From positions 1 through 35,970 of IMG/VR virus record IMGVR_UViG_3300032560_000068: DNA of 35,970 nucleotides; one strand, given 5' to 3'. This document shows positions 1 through 35,970 of this stretch, piece after piece; position 1 is the first letter of the stretch; each line of letters begins with the position of its first letter. The DNA comes from a virus. The notes under the pieces were generated by a model. That model searched no databases and was not told the DNA's origin. It saw only the letters and a list, made by a program, of their open reading frames with translations. The position numbers and the translations under genes are program-made.

Positions 1-30
1 AAACAGGCTGCCAGGACTGCCAAGCGTTAA
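1..30 (+). CDS. 3' end of a small basic phage protein (partial, cut by window edge)
   Basis: The first 30 bases read KQAARTAKR-stop. They are identical to the last codons of the complete 47-residue gene at 33274-33417. The gene is therefore not truncated biologically: this is where a circular genome was opened. Its TAA overlaps the TAA of the leftward glycosyltransferase gene in a shared TTAA. Confidence 0.85.
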   Translation, partial: KQAARTAKR

Positions 31-827
31 GGTGCTGGTAAGAGTCCACCTTCAAACAAATACGTCCCAAAATGGCCTAATTGCGCCCACGGTGCTGCCC
101 ATACCTTCAGGCCAGCCTCTCTAGCCTTCCAGCAGAAGAAGTAGTCCTCAGACAGCAGTCTCTCTGTGCCTGGTTCAATAGCACAGGCAAAGTATTCTGT
201 GATCCACTCTTGTTGTTCCACGCCTTGGCCTATAAACCCTACGTCATTCTTGTACTTGTTGACCACCTTCTTCATGCGTTCAAAAGTGCGTCTCTTGATC
301 AACATGAACCCTGTTCCCCCGTTGAAGATTTCCACAGGCTTGTCCACAGGCACGGTGACTGACCCTTGATAATCTTTGAGGTTGATCACTAAAGACCCTG
401 TTCTGTTCTTCCACTGGTCTACGGGTACACCTTCTGCAGCTGCTTGTGCAACTCCAGCCCAGTTGATTTCTTTCTTAGGGTAAATGCCACAGATGATGTC
501 CTTGTCGGACTGGATCATCTTCACAATATCACCTGGGTGGAACTTGATGTCTGCGTCTATGAACATCAGGTGGGTGTACTGTTTGTTGGTCATGAAAGTA
601 TGCGCCAGAGCGTTCCTACCCCGCTGTATGAGGCTTTCGTTGAACATGGCAGAGAACCCCATGCTGATACCGTTCTGCTGCAGTGCGTGCCCCAGAGTAA
701 TTAGGGACTGAGTGAAGTAACCTGTACACATACCACCGTACATGGGGGTTGCTACAAACACGTTGATCTTCTTCTCTTTCTTCTCTGCTTTAACTTCTGT
801 CACTTCTTTTTTCTTGCGAGTTGCCAT
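27..827 (-). CDS. Glycosyltransferase-like protein, left copy
   Basis: 266 aa. After a lysine/glutamate-rich N-terminus (residues 1-20) comes a hydrophobic strand leading into VATPMYGG (about 25-32), then a DxD-type motif in MFIDADIKFHPGD (around residue 90), the usual nucleotide-sugar and metal-binding signature of GT-A fold enzymes. Such phage enzymes may modify DNA, virion proteins or host surface sugars; the substrate cannot be read from sequence. The start is set by AAGGA about 9 bases upstream of ATG at 827. It is the last gene of the leftward unit and meets the rightward late unit tail to tail with overlapping stop codons. A second copy at 33414-34214 appears to differ by one residue (Q versus K after KMI) plus many silent changes. 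Confidence 0.8.
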   Translation of the reverse strand: MATRKKKEVTEVKAEKKEKKINVFVATPMYGGMCTGYFTQSLITLGHALQQNGISMGFSAMFNESLIQRGRNALAHTFMTNKQYTHLMFIDADIKFHPGDIVKMIQSDKDIICGIYPKKEINWAGVAQAAAEGVPVDQWKNRTGSLVINLKDYQGSVTVPVDKPVEIFNGGTGFMLIKRRTFERMKKVVNKYKNDVGFIGQGVEQQEWITEYFACAIEPGTERLLSEDYFFCWKAREAGLKVWAAPWAQLGHFGTYLFEGGLLPAP

Positions 828-849
828 GATAAATCCTTGTTGAGTTAAG

Positions 850-881
850 AAAAGGCATACTGTGGATTACGGGGGTATGCC
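850..881 (-). terminator. Weak intrinsic-terminator-like hairpin after the tRNA
   Basis: Read leftward, GGCATAC (881-875) pairs with GTATGCC (860-854) around a 14-base loop and is followed by TTTT (853-850). It lies between the tRNA-Lys and the glycosyltransferase start codon. The U-run is short, so it may attenuate transcription or only mark a 3' processing end. Its loop contains the 3' strand of a second, covarying helix (see the RNA element at 854-926). Confidence 0.45.
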
Positions 882-926
882 AGCTCCCGTCCTAACTCCC
901 AGGGTTGCCCTGGAGTTCGCATCCAC
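854..926 (-). ncRNA. Covarying structured RNA element downstream of tRNA-Lys (left copy)
   Basis: On the minus-strand transcript, GTGGAT (926-921) can pair with ATCCAC (867-862). Between them a strong hairpin AACTCCAGGG-CAA-CCCTGG(G)AGTT forms (about 919-895). The 3' strand of the outer helix lies in the loop of the GGCATAC/GTATGCC terminator-like hairpin, so the fold is either a pseudoknot or a switch between exclusive structures. The right copy (35624-35696) has GTCAGT/ACTGAC in place of GTGGAT/ATCCAC, which is three compensatory pair changes, and a G-C to G-U change in the inner hairpin. All seven differences keep pairing. It lies in the leader of whichever gene follows: the glycosyltransferase here, a small accessory gene in the right copy. 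I do not recognise it as a named family. Confidence 0.7.
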
Positions 927-934
927 TGCTGTGT

Positions 935-1010
935 TGGTGGGACGTGCGGGGATCGAACCCACGACAAACGGATTAAAAGTCCGCTGCTCTACCATCTGAG
1001 CTAACGTCCC
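935..1010 (-). tRNA. tRNA-Lys (anticodon UUU), CCA encoded
   Basis: A full 76-nt cloverleaf on the minus strand. The acceptor stem is GGGACGT/ACGTCCC, followed by discriminator A and an encoded CCA. The D-arm contains AGCTCAGATGGTAGAGC, the anticodon loop is CTTTTAA (UUU) and the T-arm is GTGGGTTCGATCCCC(G)C. The 5' end overlaps the stop codon of the micro-ORF at 1001-1069, so the tRNA is probably cut out of a polycistronic leftward transcript. The copy at 35705-35780 is identical. It probably supplements host decoding of AAA/AAG codons. Confidence 0.95.
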
Positions 1011-1080: not shown

Positions 1081-1407
1081 TCACGAGATGTCTTCTATTC
1101 TCAGCACATATTTGCCCGTCTTCAAAGACTTTCTCCACCCGTGGACGTGTATCTTGATGTTGGCTTTCCTCACCCATGAGATGGTCTCACTTTCTTGTAT
1201 CTTTTTGATTCTGGTGGACACTGCACTGGCAGTCACTTGCACCGCCAGCACCTCATTCTCTTTAATGGCTAACAGATCGCACCACCCCCAGAGGTCCTGT
1301 CTAATGCGTGCAAATGGATTCCAATGCTCGACTATAGACACTAGATAACCTTGCTCTCTGAGGTAGGCTAAAGACCGCTGGGTGGGGCTGATCTTCTTAG
1401 TTGCCAT
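1081..1407 (-). CDS. PD-(D/E)XK-like nuclease fold protein (VRR-NUC/resolvase-like)
   Basis: 108 aa. The core matches the restriction-endonuclease-like fold: an N-terminal helix with SLAYLREQGY, a basic strand with RIRQDLWGWCDLLAI carrying the likely metal-binding Asp, then a strand VLAVQVT in place of the usual (E/Q)xK. The QVT variant is odd because the catalytic lysine is missing at its normal place. It may be a variant nuclease or a non-catalytic DNA-binding relative. It starts at ATG 1407 overlapping the upstream stop (TGATG), so it is translationally coupled to the SSB-tailed protein. Its neighbours are recombination genes, which suits a role in processing branched or broken DNA. Fold assignment is by eye. 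Confidence 0.6.
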   Translation of the reverse strand: MATKKISPTQRSLAYLREQGYLVSIVEHWNPFARIRQDLWGWCDLLAIKENEVLAVQVTASAVSTRIKKIQESETISWVRKANIKIHVHGWRKSLKTGKYVLRIEDIS

Positions 1408-1742
1408 CAGAAGGGCACGTCATCATCAGCTGCTGCAGCCTTTTTAGCGTAACCAGGAGTCACCTCACGGTCTTGCATCTTGATACCCTGTTCTTGCAGA
1501 CGTTTCTTCTTTAGCCAGTTGTCTTCTTTAATGCTGAGTAGAGTGTTACCTCTAGAGGTGTCCTTCTTCCACGCACCCAGATACAACTTCTCGCCACGTT
1601 TATAGTCCATCTCTAAGAGGACATAACCAGAGTAGTCTGGTGACATCTCATGTTTACGGTCAGAGACTTCATTCCAGTACATGACACCTTTGCCATGTTG
1701 TTCTGGATAACCTCCTACGTTTATTTTCTTATCGTATGGCAT
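1407..1742 (-). CDS. Small protein with SSB-type acidic C-terminal tip
   Basis: 111 aa. The C-terminus ends ADDDVPF, close to the DDDIPF tip with which bacterial single-stranded-DNA-binding proteins recruit exonucleases, helicases and recombination factors. The body (VMYWNEVSDRKHEMSPDY, GYVLLEMDYKRGEKLYLGAW) is beta-rich and could be an OB-like or small DNA-binding domain, but I do not recognise an SSB fold for certain. A strong site (AAGGAGA) lies 5-6 bases before ATG 1742. It sits directly after the RecT-like gene and is coupled to the nuclease-like gene, so a role as the ssDNA-binding or partner-recruiting member of the recombination set is a reasonable inference. Confidence 0.6.
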   Translation of the reverse strand: MPYDKKINVGGYPEQHGKGVMYWNEVSDRKHEMSPDYSGYVLLEMDYKRGEKLYLGAWKKDTSRGNTLLSIKEDNWLKKKRLQEQGIKMQDREVTPGYAKKAAAADDDVPF

Positions 1743-18961: not shown

Positions 18962-20440
18962 ATGGCATTACCAATTACAGTTCCCTATACGTTTGGAACG
19001 GCAACCACTGCTATCCCGCTGACCAATTTGGACAGTGATTTCAGCACTGTTTACAATGCGGTGAATGGTCTGGGTAATGGCTCGGTGTCACTAGCAAACG
19101 TGTCTATCACTGGCGGTACAGTATCAGGAAATACCACGTTCTCTAACGTCACCATCAGCAGTGTTGCAAGTACGTTTCCTAATAACTATTTGTCAAACAG
19201 TAGCGTTACTGTTGGTAATACATCTGTTGCGTTGGGTTCAACTGTCACATCTTTTGGTAATGTGACTTTGACAAACACCACGATCAGTAGCGTTGCAAGT
19301 ACATTCCCCAACAATTACTTGTCCAACAGTTCTGTTACTATTGGTAACACGGCTGTTGCACTAGGTTCATCTGTAAGCACTCTTGGAAATGTAACGCTTA
19401 CAAATGCAACTATTTCTAGTGTTTCTACTGCAATTACACCCGCAGAAGGTGGAACAGGATTAACAAGCATTACTGCTAATAATGTTATTTTAGGTAATGG
19501 CACAAGTTCTGTTCAAATTGTTTCACCAGGCACGTCTGGTAATGTTTTAACCAGTAACGGTACAACATGGATTTCTCAAGCTGGTGGCTCTGCTGCTACT
19601 CCTACTTCTTTGGGGACTGTTTATGGAAGCACAGTTTCGTCAGGAAGTTATACAACTGCTTTAGGCTATCAGGCGTTAAATTCAAATGGAAATAATTACA
19701 ACGTAGGAATTGGTTATCAGGCTTTATACACCAATAATAATGGGGGGTATATGGCGGCAGTTGGTTATCAAGCACTATATTCTAATAGTGGAAATAGCGG
19801 TTCTGTTGCTCTTGGTTATCAAGCTGGATATTCTGCCGCTTGTGATAATTCTATTTTTATTGGAAACATTGCTGGTTATAACACAACAGGTGGTAACTAT
19901 AATACTTACATTGGTTTTCGTGTTCGTGGAAGTTCAGCAACCGATACAGATAATTTAGTTATCGCTGGTGGATATAATGGAGGCGGCGCTGTTGGTAAAG
20001 GTTCAAGCACTGCATTTATTACTGGAAATGGTGGTAACACTTATAACGGGGCAAATACATCATCTTTTGCAACAACTTCAGATCAACGTCTCAAGAAAAA
20101 CATTGTAGACAATACAGTTGGTCTTGCTAATATTATTCAACTTAGGGTTCGCAACTTTGAATATCGTTTACCCGAAGAAGTTGATTCAAGTCTAAAACCC
20201 ACAGATGCCATTACAAAAAGTGGTGTGCAACTTGGTTTTATTGCTCAAGAGCTTGCAGAAGTTTTACCCGATTGCGTTAAAACAGAATCAACAGGCGTTA
20301 TGTCTGTAAACATTGATAATGTAACTTATCACATGGTCAACGCAATAAAAGAACTCAACACTCTTATTACAACACAAGCGGCAACAATTACATCCATGCA
20401 AGCAACCATCACGGCTTTGCAAGCAAAAGTAGGAGTTTAA
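18962..20440 (+). CDS. Tail fibre/spike with C-terminal S74 intramolecular chaperone
   Basis: 492 aa. Residues 1-55 would attach to the tail. Residues about 60-155 hold two near-identical repeats (SSVASTFPNNYLSNSS then VGNTSVALGS). A linker EGGTGLTSITANNVILGNG follows, then a YadA-head-like stretch of LGYQAL/IGYQAL units. From about 372, TSDQRLKKNIVDN through FIAQELAEVLP is the S74 chaperone domain that trimerises and then cleaves itself off, ending in a coiled coil (ITSMQATITALQAKV). From about 19380 the DNA is visibly AT-richer than upstream, which suggests the receptor-binding end was acquired from another phage. Confidence 0.85.
   Translation: MALPITVPYTFGTATTAIPLTNLDSDFSTVYNAVNGLGNGSVSLANVSITGGTVSGNTTFSNVTISSVASTFPNNYLSNSSVTVGNTSVALGSTVTSFGNVTLTNTTISSVASTFPNNYLSNSSVTIGNTAVALGSSVSTLGNVTLTNATISSVSTAITPAEGGTGLTSITANNVILGNGTSSVQIVSPGTSGNVLTSNGTTWISQAGGSAATPTSLGTVYGSTVSSGSYTTALGYQALNSNGNNYNVGIGYQALYTNNNGGYMAAVGYQALYSNSGNSGSVALGYQAGYSAACDNSIFIGNIAGYNTTGGNYNTYIGFRVRGSSATDTDNLVIAGGYNGGGAVGKGSSTAFITGNGGNTYNGANTSSFATTSDQRLKKNIVDNTVGLANIIQLRVRNFEYRLPEEVDSSLKPTDAITKSGVQLGFIAQELAEVLPDCVKTESTGVMSVNIDNVTYHMVNAIKELNTLITTQAATITSMQATITALQAKVGV
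19147..19420 (+). repeat. Tandem fibre repeat coding for SSVASTFPNNYLSNSS...VGNT.VALGS
   Basis: Two units with a period of about 114 bases, starting near 19147 and 19261, followed by a partial third (NVTLTNATISSV). The unit IGNTxVALGSTVTTLGNVTL recurs in the second fibre gene at 21470-21690, so the two fibres share modules. Confidence 0.75.
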
Positions 20441-21121: not shown

Positions 21122-22291
21122 ATGTTAAAAACGGTATCTAGTGGCGGTGGAACAACTGGGCAGTTAAATTATTTAGGCACATGGAATGCCAATACAAACT
21201 CGCCTACGCTTGTTTCTGGCACTGGTACTAAGAATGGTTACTATGTGGTTTCCGTTGCTGGAACAACCACATTAGATGGCATTTCATCATGGTCTGTCGG
21301 GGACTGGGCTATATTTAACGGCACAGTTTGGGAAAAGGTATTGGGAGGCACTACAGAGTCTTTTGCAAATGTGTCTATCACAACGGCAACAGGTTATCTC
21401 TACGCCAACAATACTGCCAACGTCATTGCATCTTTGACCATTCCTAATTCTGGACTAGCCAATAGCAACGTCATTATTGGCAACACCACGATTGCACTAG
21501 GCAGCACAACTGCTAACCTTTCCAACCTTACTCTAGCCAACGTCACTATTCAGAGCGGTACGTTTCCTTCTGCAAACCTCTCTGCCAACAGTGCAACCAT
21601 AGGCAACACTGTGGTGGCACTAGGTAGCACGGTGACTACGCTAGGCAACGTCACTTTAGCCAACGTCACCATACAAAGTGGTAATGCAACATTTACCAAT
21701 GTCACCGCTCAAAATCAGATTGCAACTGCAAACATCTATGCAAACGTCACAGCGGGTGCATTTTCCTATGGAACTCTTGGATATTCAGATGTAGGAATTA
21801 TTGCATCTTACGCAAATAGTTCTAATAACTATGTGCAAATTGTTTTACAAAACACAAGTAGTGGAACAAATGCGTCTAGTGATTTTGTGGTGGTTAATGA
21901 CACAGGGTCTGCCTATGCTGATTTTGGTATGACATCTAGCCAGTACACGGGTACAGGTGCATTCTATAAACCCAACGCACCGTATTTGTATTCTGGTTCT
22001 TCTGATTTGTACATTGGCACGATCACTGCAAATGCTATTCACATTGTTGCTAACAATGCAACAACAGATGCCATCACAGTTGCCTCTACTAATGCGGTAA
22101 CTATTCCCTCGTTGTCTAGTGGCAATGTCACCATCACAGGAGGAACAATCAATGTTACGACTACTAATGTGGCTGCTACCACTGCTGCTAGTGCTACTTT
22201 TGCTAATTCAAGCCTATTGTTAGTACCAGCTGGTTATATAGATTTTGACCTCAACGGCACAGTAGTAAAAGTGCCCTACTACGCTGTTTAA
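21122..22291 (+). CDS. Second tail fibre protein
   Basis: 389 aa. After an N-terminal unit with TGQLNYLGTWNANTNSPTL and SWSVGDWAIFNGTVWEKV, a carbohydrate-binding-like opening common in fibre proteins, come repeats VIIGNTTIALGSTTANLSN and TIGNTVVALGSTVTTLGNV (about 117-185) shared with the fibre at 18962. Long N/T/A-rich strands follow, suited to a triple beta-helix, and a short end DFDLNGTVVKVPYYAV. No S74 domain is present. Starts at ATG 21122 two bases after the previous stop. Probably a side fibre or adapter. Confidence 0.75.
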   Translation: MLKTVSSGGGTTGQLNYLGTWNANTNSPTLVSGTGTKNGYYVVSVAGTTTLDGISSWSVGDWAIFNGTVWEKVLGGTTESFANVSITTATGYLYANNTANVIASLTIPNSGLANSNVIIGNTTIALGSTTANLSNLTLANVTIQSGTFPSANLSANSATIGNTVVALGSTVTTLGNVTLANVTIQSGNATFTNVTAQNQIATANIYANVTAGAFSYGTLGYSDVGIIASYANSSNNYVQIVLQNTSSGTNASSDFVVVNDTGSAYADFGMTSSQYTGTGAFYKPNAPYLYSGSSDLYIGTITANAIHIVANNATTDAITVASTNAVTIPSLSSGNVTITGGTINVTTTNVAATTAASATFANSSLLLVPAGYIDFDLNGTVVKVPYYAV

Positions 22292-33277: not shown

Positions 33278-33417
33278 AAACACCAAAAGCAAAACGTGGT
33301 CTTTACTACAACATCAACAAAAGACGCAAGGCTGGCCTACCCGCCAAGAAACCTGGTCAGCCTGGTTACCCTACCAGAAAAGCCTTTAAACAGGCTGCCA
33401 GGACTGCCAAGCGTTAA
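33274..33417 (+). CDS. Small lysine-rich phage protein, 47 aa
   Basis: ATG 33274 overlaps the previous TGA (ATGA). The product is MKTPKAKRGLYYNINKRRK then AGLPAKKPGQPGYPTRKAF and KQAARTAKR, a basic extended protein seen in pairs with the preceding family in many phages. Last gene of the rightward block. Its TAA overlaps the stop of the convergent glycosyltransferase. Positions 1-30 of the window repeat its 3' end. Confidence 0.7.
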   Translation: MKTPKAKRGLYYNINKRRKAGLPAKKPGQPGYPTRKAFKQAARTAKR

Positions 33418-34214
33418 GGTGCTGGTAAGAGTCCACCTTCAAACAAATACGTCCCAAAATGGCCTAATTGCGCCCACGGTGCTGCCCATACCTTCAGACC
33501 AGCCTCTCTAGCCTTCCAGCAGAAGAAGTAGTCCTCAGACAGCAGTCTTTCTGTGCCTGGTTCAATAGCACAGGCAAAGTATTCTGTGATCCACTCTTGC
33601 TGTTCTACGCCTTGTCCTATAAAACCTACGTCATTCTTGTACTTGTTGACTACCTTCTTCATGCGTTCAAAAGTGCGTCTCTTGATCAACATGAACCCTG
33701 TACCGCCATTAAAGATTTCCACAGGCTTGTCCACAGGCACAGTCACTGAACCTTGATAGTCTTTGAGGTTGATCACTAGAGACCCTGTACGGTTCTTCCA
33801 CTGGTCTACGGGTACGCCTTCTGCAGCTGCTTGTGCGACCCCAGCCCAGTTAATCTCCTTCTTAGGGTAAATGCCACAGATGATGTCCTTGTCGGACTTG
33901 ATCATCTTCACAATGTCACCTGGGTGGAACTTGATGTCTGCGTCTATAAACATCAGGTGGGTGTACTGCTTGTTGGTCATGAAAGTATGCGCCAGAGCGT
34001 TCCTACCCCGCTGTATGAGGCTTTCGTTAAACATAGCAGAAAACCCCATGCTGATACCGTTCTGCTGCAGTGCGTGCCCCAGAGTAATTAGGGACTGAGT
34101 GAAGTAACCTGTACACATACCACCATACATAGGGGTGGCTACAAACACGTTGATCTTCTTCTCTTTCTTCTCTGCTTTCACTTCTGTCACTTCTTTTTTC
34201 TTACGAGTTGCCAT
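33414..34214 (-). CDS. Glycosyltransferase-like protein, right copy
   Basis: 266 aa, nearly identical in protein to the copy at 27-827; one K/Q difference after KMI is evident, while many third positions differ. The DxD motif in MFIDADIKFHPGD is intact. Here the gene is preceded by AAAGGAG and overlaps the stop of the accessory gene at 34201-34422 by 14 bases, so its translation is coupled to the inserted array. In the left copy it instead follows the tRNA/RNA element directly. Its regulation therefore differs between the two variants. Confidence 0.8.
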   Translation of the reverse strand: MATRKKKEVTEVKAEKKEKKINVFVATPMYGGMCTGYFTQSLITLGHALQQNGISMGFSAMFNESLIQRGRNALAHTFMTNKQYTHLMFIDADIKFHPGDIVKMIKSDKDIICGIYPKKEINWAGVAQAAAEGVPVDQWKNRTGSLVINLKDYQGSVTVPVDKPVEIFNGGTGFMLIKRRTFERMKKVVNKYKNDVGFIGQGVEQQEWITEYFACAIEPGTERLLSEDYFFCWKAREAGLKVWAAPWAQLGHFGTYLFEGGLLPAP

Positions 34215-34422
34215 GATTTTTCTCCTTTAATTTAGTTTCAAAGTATTTGTACAAAGTCACAAAATGAGCACCTTCAATGTGTGGATCATTACCCCCCCAA
34301 TGCCACGCTTCTAAAAGCTCCTCATCTGTCAATCCTATCCATTCACGTTCTCCAGCTTTATACTGACATCCTTTTTTCTTGGTGTAACCGCAGTCACCCC
34401 CACAGCTTGGGCATGGTTTCAT
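34201..34422 (-). CDS. Array gene 1: small protein with CxxC motif and WIGLT core
   Basis: 73 aa. The N-terminus MKPCPSCGGDCGYTKKKGC has five cysteines arranged as a small zinc knuckle. Then comes the shared core EREWIGLTDEELLEAWHWG and the shared tail YFETKLKEKN. The core and tail recur in the three genes at 34419, 34630 and 34875 with different N-termini, so this is one member of a modular family. It ends overlapping the glycosyltransferase start. Function unknown; a domain-swapping adaptor or decoy is a speculation. Confidence 0.65.
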   Translation of the reverse strand: MKPCPSCGGDCGYTKKKGCQYKAGEREWIGLTDEELLEAWHWGGNDPHIEGAHFVTLYKYFETKLKEKNHGNS

Positions 34423-34640
34423 GTGTTGAGCTTCTTCAGCTTGGCTTCAATGGCTCTGGCAAAAGACTTGGCATCGACCCCATCCCAAGGAATTTCATCG
34501 TCATCTTTCAGTCCTACCCATGTGCGTTTTTTTGCTTCTACCAGTTTGGCAAAAGCTATGAAATTGTCACGTTCTTCTTTTTTAATAACTCCACCAAATG
34601 CTTGGCAAGCCATTTCTATGATTTCGTCTTTAGTAACCAT
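34419..34640 (-). CDS. Array gene 2: small protein with WVGL core
   Basis: 73 aa, coupled to array gene 1 by ATGA. The N-terminal module DEIIEMACQAFGGVIKKEER and FIAFAKLVEAKKR is related to the start of the gene at 35314 (EEIIEMANQA...FARLVAEKER). The core RTWVGLKDDDEIPWDG and the tail FARAIEAKLKKLNT are the common parts. The 22-base DNA run CTTCAGCTTGGC followed by TTCAATGGCT (+ strand, 34434-34455) is repeated exactly at 34648-34669 in the next gene. Confidence 0.65.
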   Translation of the reverse strand: MVTKDEIIEMACQAFGGVIKKEERDNFIAFAKLVEAKKRTWVGLKDDDEIPWDGVDAKSFARAIEAKLKKLNT

Positions 34641-34878
34641 TTTTATCCTTCAGCTTGGCTTCAATGGCTTGACATAGTTCGTATGACATTCCAAATGGCA
34701 ACACCCCGCATTGAATAAGTTCCGCTTGTGTTAATCCAACCCATTCACGCTCAGGCTTTTCCATTTGAACAATCAATGAGGATTCTTTAATCATCTGCCC
34801 CTTGAGCAATCGGTCAACATCATCCTTGTTGAGATACAAGTTGTCGTACCCTGCGTTGAAAGTTCGTGTTAGTCTCAT
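34630..34878 (-). CDS. Array gene 3: small protein with WVGLT core
   Basis: 82 aa, overlapping the following gene by 11 bases. A distinct N-terminal module (LTRTFNAGYDNLYLNKDDVD then RLLKGQMIKESSLIVQME) is fused to the common core PEREWVGLTQAELIQCG and the common tail LCQAIEAKLKDKNGY. Different heads on a shared core-tail suggest that the N-terminal part is exchanged by recombination at the repeated DNA around the core. Confidence 0.65.
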   Translation of the reverse strand: MRLTRTFNAGYDNLYLNKDDVDRLLKGQMIKESSLIVQMEKPEREWVGLTQAELIQCGVLPFGMSYELCQAIEAKLKDKNGY

Positions 34879-35204
34879 GTGTTGCGCTCCTTCAACATGG
34901 CTTCAATGGCTTGAACAAAGTTATAAATGTTAGGCACAGAAAAACCAATAAATTCTTTTTCCAATTCATCTATTTGATTTTCAGTCAGTCCTACCCATGT
35001 GCGTTGTGGTGTGGTGTAAAGAGGAATTCCCGCAGAATAATCAGTTACTTCTTTCCATATACCATCAGTAAACTTTGCAAACTTACCAACAGGCTCATCT
35101 TTTGTTTCTAGTGCTTCTTTGATAATTTCAATAGCCTTCATCCTTTTGTCGTAATCAAAATCAGTCAGAGCTTCTAATGCAAGTTGTAATGTTTCTTTAG
35201 TCAT
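34875..35204 (-). CDS. Array gene 4: longest WVGLT-core protein
   Basis: 109 aa. The N-terminal part KETLQLALEALTDFDYDKRM and KAIEIIKEALETKDEPVGK is an amphipathic helix pair, followed by a strand-rich part ending GIPLYTTPQ, then the core RTWVGLTENQIDELEKEF and the tail FVQAIEAMLKERNT. This head type, leading into LYTxP, is one I associate with many phages of beta-proteobacteria. It is coupled by ATGA to both neighbours. Confidence 0.65.
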   Translation of the reverse strand: MTKETLQLALEALTDFDYDKRMKAIEIIKEALETKDEPVGKFAKFTDGIWKEVTDYSAGIPLYTTPQRTWVGLTENQIDELEKEFIGFSVPNIYNFVQAIEAMLKERNT

Positions 35205-35317
35205 TCTTGTTTCCTTGCTTGAATTGCTTTTTCAACTAAATAAAATACAAAAGAATAAATAATGTTAAACAACATAAGTTGACCCAAGGTAATAGGTTGA
35301 TTTAATATTTCAATCAT
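35201..35317 (-). CDS. 38-residue single-span membrane protein in the array
   Basis: ATG 35317 overlaps the stop of the gene at 35314-35598 and its own stop overlaps the start of the next gene (ATGA at both ends). The product has IEILNQPITLGQLM, then a hydrophobic helix LMLFNIIYSFVFYLV, then KAIQARKQE, whose end resembles the tails AIRARGQE and AIEAKLK of the neighbours. DNA around its 3' end (35202-35231) is repeated with few changes at 35315-35344, pointing to local duplication. Function unknown. Confidence 0.6.
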   Translation of the reverse strand: MIEILNQPITLGQLMLFNIIYSFVFYLVEKAIQARKQE

Positions 35318-35598
35318 TCTTGTCCCCTTGCTCGAATTGCTTTAGATGTTTTCACTAATTGAGTCATTGCGCCTTGAATAAAACACTTTGCAATGTGTTC
35401 ATCATCTTCAAGTTCATTTATGGCTTCTTGGTTTTGCAACATAGTCAAGTCACATAACTTAGCACACGCCTCACGTTCTTTTTCTGCTACCAGTCTGGCA
35501 AACTGTTCTATGCTATCTAGCCACATTAACTCACCCGTAACATAGTCGTAAGGTAACTTTGCTTGATTAGCCATTTCTATGATTTCTTCATCAGTCAT
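35314..35598 (-). CDS. Array gene 6: EIIEMA-type small protein
   Basis: 94 aa from ATG 35598, with AAGAAAGG just upstream; a longer frame from 35628 would begin inside the terminator-like hairpin. The head DEEIIEMANQAKLPYDYVTG and FARLVAEKEREACAKLC is followed by an acidic helix and the tail LVKTSKAIRARGQE. It lacks the WVGLT core but shares the head with array gene 2 and the tail style with the others. Its leader is the covarying RNA element, so the whole array may be controlled by it. Confidence 0.65.
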   Translation of the reverse strand: MTDEEIIEMANQAKLPYDYVTGELMWLDSIEQFARLVAEKEREACAKLCDLTMLQNQEAINELEDDEHIAKCFIQGAMTQLVKTSKAIRARGQE

Positions 35599-35619
35599 GT
35601 TTAACCTTTCTTGGTTAGG

Positions 35620-35651
35620 AAAAGGCATACTGTCAGTTACGGGGGTATGCC
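35620..35651 (-). terminator. Terminator-like hairpin, right copy
   Basis: GGCATAC/GTATGCC (35651-35645 with 35630-35624) followed by TTTT (35623-35620), as in the left copy, but with loop bases changed from TGTGGATTACGGGG to TGTCAGTTACGGGG on the + strand. It sits before array gene 6. Confidence 0.45.
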
Positions 35652-35696
35652 AGCTCCCGTCCTAACTCCCAGGATTGCCCTGGAGTTCGCACTGAC
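35624..35696 (-). ncRNA. Covarying structured RNA element downstream of tRNA-Lys (right copy)
   Basis: Same architecture as 854-926. GTCAGT (35696-35691) pairs with ACTGAC (35637-35632), and the inner hairpin AACTCCAGGG-CAA-TCCTGG(G)AGTT has a G-U in place of one G-C. All sequence changes relative to the left copy preserve pairing on this strand, although the gene downstream is different. The element is therefore conserved for its own function rather than for the neighbouring coding sequence. Confidence 0.7.
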
Positions 35697-35704
35697 TGCT
35701 GTGT

Positions 35705-35780
35705 TGGTGGGACGTGCGGGGATCGAACCCACGACAAACGGATTAAAAGTCCGCTGCTCTACCATCTGAGCTAACGTCCC
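35705..35780 (-). tRNA. tRNA-Lys (anticodon UUU), right copy
   Basis: Identical 76 bases to 935-1010, with CCA encoded and all arms intact. Flanked by the variant RNA element and the variant micro-ORF, so the tRNA itself is the invariant part of the locus. Confidence 0.95.
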
Positions 35781-35839
35781 TCTTGACCGTCTTTGTACCC
35801 TTCCGAGTAGGCTAGAGTCCACAGTTCTTGCAAACTCAT
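35771..35839 (-). CDS. 22-residue micro-ORF, right copy
   Basis: Same peptide as 1001-1069 (MSLQELWTLAYSEGYKDG then QEGR) encoded with four different synonymous codons. ATG 35839, stop TAG inside the tRNA. Its preserved protein sequence with changed DNA is the main evidence that it is translated. Confidence 0.65.
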   Translation of the reverse strand: MSLQELWTLAYSEGYKDGQEGR

Positions 35840-35850
35840 GTTAATGAACC

Positions 35851-35970
35851 TCACGAGATGTCTTCTATTCTCAGCACATATTTGCCCGTCTTCAAAGACT
35901 TTCTCCACCCGTGGACGTGTATCTTGATGTTGGCTTTCCTCACCCATGAGATGGTCTCACTTTCTTGTAT
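35851..35970 (-). CDS. 3' part of the PD-(D/E)XK-like gene (cut by window edge)
   Basis: Corresponds to 1081-1200, encoding the last 39 residues (ending YVLRIEDIS). The rest lies beyond the window and is represented by the complete left copy at 1081-1407. No difference between the two copies is seen in this stretch. Confidence 0.85.
   Translation of the reverse strand: MQESETISWVRKANIKIHVHGWRKSLKTGKYVLRIEDIS

Follow-up and report, generated by a model that had tools for sequence, protein, structure and literature searches.

The window, i.e. the whole 35,970-nt stretch of IMG/VR virus record IMGVR_UViG_3300032560_000068 analysed here, carries on its minus strand a structured RNA element of ca. 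85 nt that belongs to a new RNA family, though of a general type already known, the cis-acting phage leader pseudoknots. We regard the existence of the structure as practically certain. Read along the gene strand, its predicted parts follow each other in the order H1a, H2 hairpin, P4a, H3a, PKa, H3b, H1b, PKb and P4b. With a probability that we put at ca. 45%, the element would act as a cis-acting intercistronic leader controlling translation initiation of the next gene, as does the T4 gene 32 operator. The parts of the two copies found in the window, together with their flanking genes, are as follows.

921-926, minus strand: H1 5' strand GUGGAU of the left copy (H1 cells 95% paired in 41 distinct sequences, double changes at 5 of 6 pairs)
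899-913, minus strand: H2 hairpin CCAGGG/CCCUGG with a CAA loop (pairing of 98-100% in the upper five pairs, each with 3-7 co-changes on the same branch)
891-898, minus strand: P4 5' strand GAGUUAGG, with GUUAG invariant (descriptor and alignment)
886-890, minus strand: H3 5' strand ACGGG (alignment pairing)
875-881, minus strand: PK 5' strand GGCAUAC, located in the H3 loop (helix absent from the search model, 99.2% of cells paired)
869-873, minus strand: H3 3' strand CCCGU (alignment pairing)
862-867, minus strand: H1 3' strand AUCCAC (alignment pairing and copy comparison)
854-860, minus strand: PK 3' strand GUAUGCC (one conserved A between H1 and this strand)
842-849, minus strand: P4 3' strand CUUAACUC ([CU]UAAC after PK in 57/58; outside the previously proposed span of 850-934)
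834-838, minus strand: AAGGA, the Shine-Dalgarno of the next gene, whose start codon occupies 825-827
27-827, minus strand: downstream ORF, glycosyltransferase-like (phrog_1574; weak Anp1)
935-1010, minus strand: tRNA-Lys (UUU) with encoded CCA, 8 nt before H1
35691-35696, minus strand: H1 5' strand GUCAGU of the right copy (copy comparison)
35669-35683, minus strand: H2 hairpin of the right copy, with G-U in place of one G-C
35661-35666, minus strand: P4 5' strand GUUAGG of the right copy (descriptor)
35656-35660, minus strand: H3 5' strand of the right copy (descriptor)
35645-35651, minus strand: PK 5' strand of the right copy (descriptor)
35639-35643, minus strand: H3 3' strand of the right copy (descriptor)
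35632-35637, minus strand: H1 3' strand ACUGAC of the right copy (copy comparison)
35624-35630, minus strand: PK 3' strand of the right copy (descriptor)
35614-35619, minus strand: P4 3' strand CCUAAC of the right copy (descriptor)
35314-35599, minus strand: a different downstream ORF of 94 aa next to the right copy (SD-preceded ATG at 35597-35599)
35705-35780, minus strand: tRNA-Lys of the right copy, identical to the left one (copy comparison)

The same minus-strand RNA occurs in ca. 120 IMG/VR contigs, representing 58 distinct sequences, which were collected by pattern, gene-neighbour and covariance-model searches. A first search with an 18-mer from the element retrieved 21 IMG/VR contigs, and divergent versions having other helix sequences were found by inspecting the region that precedes the next gene in its homologues. 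Further patterns gave 109 contigs, all genuine among the part of them that was read; 12 more were added once chance matches had been removed, and L072, L311, L314 and L239 were recovered via their neighbours and the covariance model. Nineteen new loci returned by one pattern turned out to be chance matches, and L136, L179, L216, L220, L221 and L227 were set aside as such. The sequence-only reading, which was based on the two copies of the window, had proposed building a covariance model: an Infernal model made from eight sequences and limited to H1, H2 and H3, with PK excluded, finds all lineages then known, and the additional covarying homologues on which that reading made its RNA depend are present in 58 distinct sequences. 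A descriptor detects H1, H3 and PK in 58/58 of these and P4 in 57/58; the H2 hairpin is also common to the family, and PK, usually of 7 bp, joins the H3 loop to the strand following H1.

The previous statement that the RNA matches no named family holds after Rfam cmscan: Rfam 15 at gathering threshold returns only the tRNA in the window, and relaxed scans identified no family in the window (E up to 10) or in three divergent members (E up to 5). On the gene strand, the best non-tRNA score is that of DUF2815 RNA (RF03084), with E = 0.1 and 20.6 bits for a gathering score of 41.2; this RNA has in common with ours a single hairpin before AAGGA-ATG but does not have the set formed by H1, H2, H3, PK and P4. 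When the RNA was compared by BLAST with phage and plasmid sequences, nothing matched apart from short stretches that unrelated genes share with it by chance, and the RNA model had no hit in the nearest annotated phages, MW202753 and MW202825. Scanning 257 Gb of bacterial and archaeal genomes gave two hits (Enterovibrio and Prevotella), both of which lacked the structure when read, so that no host or prophage was found there. Searches of the literature open to non-subscribers named nothing similar.

It is covariation, and not thermodynamic folding, that reveals the structure, since folding alone would not have disclosed it (z = -0.8 and -1.0). Across 40 aligned relatives, each column pair of H1, H2, H3 and PK is canonical in 75-100% of the sequences, apart from the innermost H2 pair (62%), and the helices have undergone many independent compensatory changes. 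Taken together, the four helices are 95.1% paired and reach a covariation score of 0.615, versus 0.179 when shuffled and at most 0.095 when slid. For PK, 99.2% of cells are paired in the uncorrected model alignment as compared to 21-33% when slid, 24 cells show changes in both partners where shuffles give 5.6, and 4 of the 7 pairs display both-side changes. Five rows in which Infernal had misplaced or split H3/PK were corrected by hand, after which all seven PK columns are 100% canonical across GGCAUAC, GGCAGAC, GACAGAC, GGUGGA and GGGGGGA; as such manual changes work in favour of the structure, the alignment without them provides the more impartial test. We further used a home-made tree-aware null (not R-scape) in which columns evolved independently on a FastTree tree and were scored by a G statistic with APC correction. 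Out of 2,485 column pairs, the 13 that rank first all belong to the structure, and seven of them have E = 0 in 120 simulations; the best PK pairs have E values of 0.07 and 0.22, which are modest because each PK version arose few times. On the gene strand G-U pairs are far more numerous than A-C mismatches. A single A, almost always conserved, links H1b to PKb. Family covariation thus confirms the minus-strand structured RNA that had been claimed; the expression "proven by covariation" was too strong for two alleles and is justified by the family.

Comparing 850-934 with 35620-35704 gives exactly the seven differences reported initially (864, 865, 866, 904, 922, 923 and 924), all of which fall in pairs. 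Three compensatory pairs have changed on both sides, with minus-strand GUGGAU/AUCCAC becoming GUCAGU/ACUGAC, and one G-C of H2 becomes G-U when read on the minus strand. Only 5 differences are found in the next 266 bases (tRNA-Lys and beyond), none of them in the tRNA. The differences are no assembly error, since other contigs (L003, L007 and L015) have the GTCAGT version as well. Judging from sequence comparison, we have here one locus in two strain alleles and not a pair of paralogues, because the contig ends overlap at ca. 95% identity (95.7% between 33388-34217 and 1-830, 94.9% between 35596-35970 and 825-1200) and because 10/10 relatives of at least 34 kb have a single RNA copy each. The contig probably closes on itself with strain variation, in which case the genome would be circular or circularly permuted and of ca. 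34 kb; its nearest annotated relatives are circular phages of 34-36 kb. As stated before, the downstream gene differs between the copies while the RNA is kept (27-827 for the left one versus 35314-35599 for the right one), and one strain has small ORFs, in a 1.4-kb block (34218-35595), between the RNA and the glycosyltransferase-like gene. The position previously given to the RNA, 850-934, does not cover all of it, since P4b, the last strand, is at 842-849.

Several small ORFs at 34201-35204 (minus strand) are mosaics with a common "RxWVGLT" segment and an "AIEAKLKEKN" tail, the DNA of which, AAGGAGAAAAATCATG, supplies the Shine-Dalgarno of the next gene. Short exact repeats occur among them (34434-34455 is identical to 34648-34669), and these ORFs look like exchangeable cassettes with a shared junction. 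Elsewhere on the plus strand, direct repeats of 126 bp with 75% identity (19150-19404, in ORF 18962-20440) and of 85 bp with 72% identity (21476-21683, in ORF 21122-22291) are probably repeat domains of virion proteins. The tRNA-Lys(UUU) at 935-1010 (minus strand) is the only phage tRNA; anticodon nucleases, PrrC among them, classically attack a tRNA of this kind (PMC3014915), and a role in counter-defence is possible.

P4 is composed of GUUAG and [CU]UAAC and closes the element in 57/58 distinct sequences, [CU]UAAC being present a few nt after PK in these 57 as compared to 7.5% of shuffled tails. Support for its pairing comes mainly from one covarying pair and a G-C/G-U exchange, the helix being nearly invariant: the outer pair is A-U in 31 cases, G-C in 22, G-U in 2, A-C in 1 (the right copy of the window) and C-A in 1. 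P4b belongs to the RNA, since it is retained where the downstream gene and its SD have been replaced (L002, L021, L059 and L211). In L177 (1293-1398), P4b has been lost where a different ORF joined the element, which provides a natural test of the need for P4. Because the P4 sequence is invariant while every other helix has changed sequence, P4 is likely to be recognised by something.

Between the pseudoknot and the two-state switch first envisaged for this RNA, family covariation supports the pseudoknot and argues against a switch of H1 with the "terminator" stem as a general explanation. Since H1, H3, PK and P4 use separate strands that all pair in the same sequences, a single fold with a simultaneous double pseudoknot is favoured by the alignment over the alternatives. 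In the tRNA lineage a local switch is possible, the lower H2 stem AACU/AGUU sharing bases with P4. Rough energetics (nested core -21.7, PK -11.1 and P4 -7.4 kcal/mol before pseudoknot penalties, for a best nested fold of -31.7) appear compatible with the double pseudoknot and are not decisive. In such a fold H1 would stack on PK and P4 on H3, resulting in two side-by-side rods.

The element is independent of gene identity both upstream and downstream. Among the 58 distinct sequences, 25 are preceded by tRNA-Lys and 32 by a small ORF of the MSLQxLWNIAY type having its stop inside the element; one further member, L068, has a tRNA ca. 90 nt away, and L311 has an unrelated ORF upstream. ARAGORN detected no tRNA in ORF-type loci. 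Relative to the start of GUUAG, the ORF-type stop is found between -8 and +2 nt (-26 in L072), and in three lineages the stop codon is the UAG of GUUAG itself. In the RNA-less relatives L087, L088 and L091, the small ORF upstream of the glycosyltransferase-like gene overlaps the next start (ATGA), and this direct stop-start coupling takes the place of the element. On the other side, an SD-preceded start codon occurs 15-28 nt after PK in 160/164 instances (redundant loci included), whatever the gene. Downstream genes fall into eight unrelated ORF clusters, with 133 glycosyltransferase-like instances and 27 in seven others that include HNH_3 endonucleases; the RNA is found in several separate clades of the tree of the glycosyltransferase-like gene, in which well-supported branches force at least 3 state changes. 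In L073 (2531 onward), L204 and L159, HNH_3 endonuclease ORFs are located directly between the RNA and the glycosyltransferase-like gene, and this junction may therefore be a homing site.

A general cis-acting leader is proposed because of this fixed place before the initiation region and of the indifference to gene identity. The invariant P4 helix and its flanking A residues would form a specific recognition surface, and a phage or host protein, or another ligand, bound there may alter ribosome access to the adjacent initiation region. Sequestration of the Shine-Dalgarno was dropped, as UCCUU, which would pair with it, is found in 0/55 leaders and the SD is as accessible as in shuffled sequences (0.52 versus 0.51). 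Since the element does not pair with the SD, control would be indirect, by a bound factor, geometry or mRNA stability. In tRNA-less lineages, the 5' half would be opened by ribosomes as they complete the small upstream ORF, and upstream translation could in this way also gate the element. That the downstream genes are functionally unrelated is unusual for a riboswitch or a feedback operator and counts against the leader reading.

Repression by gp32 in T4 and RB69 is nucleated at a pseudoknot immediately 5' of the RBS, and in T4 the upstream ORF segG, which encodes a homing endonuclease, overlaps the gene 32 pseudoknot (PMC535899, PMC3014915); a 2010 review considered the latter as possibly the only viral pseudoknot autoregulating translation (PMC3014915). 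The element described here resembles this operator in being a phage intercistronic mRNA pseudoknot just 5' of the initiation region and in overlapping an upstream ORF (segG in T4, the small ORF in this RNA). However, the T4 operator is a simple pseudoknot of ca. 28 nt with A+U-rich repeats on its 3' side, whereas this RNA has ca. 85 nt with two interlocked pseudoknots and a hairpin, and no sequence relation between the two was found. Moreover, the T4 operator controls the SSB gene itself while this RNA precedes glycosyltransferase-like, HNH or small ORFs, and the SSB-like gene of the window (1407-1742) is upstream of the element, not downstream. With preQ1, SAM-II and other pseudoknot riboswitches the RNA shares a pseudoknotted element just before the Shine-Dalgarno; it differs from these riboswitches by the lack of any Rfam riboswitch hit, by its functionally unrelated downstream genes and by an SD lying outside the fold.

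Besides a leader, the indifference to gene identity on both sides would also suit a processing or stability element, which would mark and protect the 5' end of the downstream mRNA, or block decay from there, once the upstream tRNA or cistron has been cut away. A compact pseudoknot at a cistron boundary, found directly after an excised tRNA in 25/58 members, is in line with this explanation, which we hold to be unlikely though worth keeping, as no cut is expected at the 5' edge of the 32 members in which the upstream ORF stops inside the element, and the tRNA lineage has 8-9 single-stranded nt before H1. The same 32 members argue against a 3' stabiliser of the tRNA transcript, as once suggested, as a general explanation, since they follow an ORF and ARAGORN finds no tRNA there. 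Their stops, clustered around the start of GUUAG (-8 to +2, one at -26) and in three lineages provided by its UAG, would suit a translation-coupled switch in which ribosomes ending at the small ORF would melt H1, H2 and P4 and expose the initiation region, the element otherwise being folded and repressive. RNA-less sisters such as L087, with their ATGA coupling, point in the same direction, but the same element is kept in tRNA lineages, in which no ORF enters it, and we see this switch as improbable. A terminator-like hairpin had also been pointed out early, and an intrinsic terminator or attenuator after the tRNA, formed by GGCAUAC...GUAUGCC-UUUU, would find its T-rich linker after PK in the window and in other tRNA-linked members. 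The T-run after GTATGCC is missing from the L017, L069, L076, L084 and L089 lineages (for example GTATGCCAAACTC in L017, GTCTGCCACCTAACC in L069 and CCCCCCTCCACC in L084), in which the strands still covary; several lineages thus lack the direct U-run that, with a GC-rich hairpin, defines an intrinsic terminator, and the downstream gene is in the same operon. As a general explanation the terminator-like hairpin is not supported, and an intrinsic terminator or attenuator after the tRNA is highly unlikely. Finally, the HNH_3 ORFs and small-ORF cassettes inserted right after the element in several relatives could suggest a recombination or homing site acting as DNA and not as RNA. This is hardly credible given the excess of G-U pairs over A-C mismatches on the gene strand, an orientation that is always that of the genes, and a long compensatory divergence of the helices that a sequence-specific DNA site would not tolerate. 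An integron attC site (GTT...AAC core sites in the opposite order), a type III antitoxin repeat (single copy, no toxin) and GOLLD (no Rfam hit) were also considered and rejected.

The helix strands of the HDV ribozyme follow the order P1-P2-P3-P1-P1.1-P2. With H1 as P1, P4 as P2, H3 as P3 and PK as P1.1, plus the extra H2 hairpin, the family has this same nested double-pseudoknot order in 58 sequences, and theta ribozymes are often located next to phage tRNA 3' ends (PMC10879173). A self-cleaving ribozyme that would free the tRNA 3' end or the downstream mRNA is thus retained because the strands of the element are arranged as in HDV and theta ribozymes, the latter sitting at phage tRNA ends; the site just 3' of a phage tRNA and an invariant A before H1 agree with it. 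It is nonetheless very doubtful, because the catalytic C at the first J4/2 position is missing, the P1.1 equivalent has 7 bp, and a cut ahead of H1 would deprive the upstream ORF of its stop in 32 members. The PK-P4 linker is short and variable (TTTTC, A, CTC, ACCCTAC, TCCAC and others) with no invariant C at its start, a hairpin is intercalated between the P1 and P2 strands, and neither HDV nor any other ribozyme was hit in Rfam (E up to 10 for the window and up to 5 for three divergent members). Furthermore, theta ribozymes that accompany a tRNA are found no more than 5 nt from its end, and seldom where the CCA is encoded, whereas here the tRNA is optional, the CCA is encoded and upstream ORFs end inside the RNA. 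A broader conception, which we consider a long shot, is that of a new RNA class with an HDV-like double-pseudoknot fold whose P1.1 would have grown to a 7-bp helix, serving either as a new self-cleaving ribozyme that matures both phage tRNA-Lys and downstream mRNAs or as a general, gene-independent phage translation-initiation module, with a logic like that of viral intergenic IRES pseudoknots.

With ca. 120 natural instances and many compensatory changes, the structure and the function of the proposed leader are directly testable in a reporter. Because the element stays while flanking genes swap, it has the look of a module for expression in general and not of a sensor tied to one gene. Overall, these data add to phage biology, in which few cis-acting pseudoknots are known, a well-supported RNA family with two interlocked pseudoknots.
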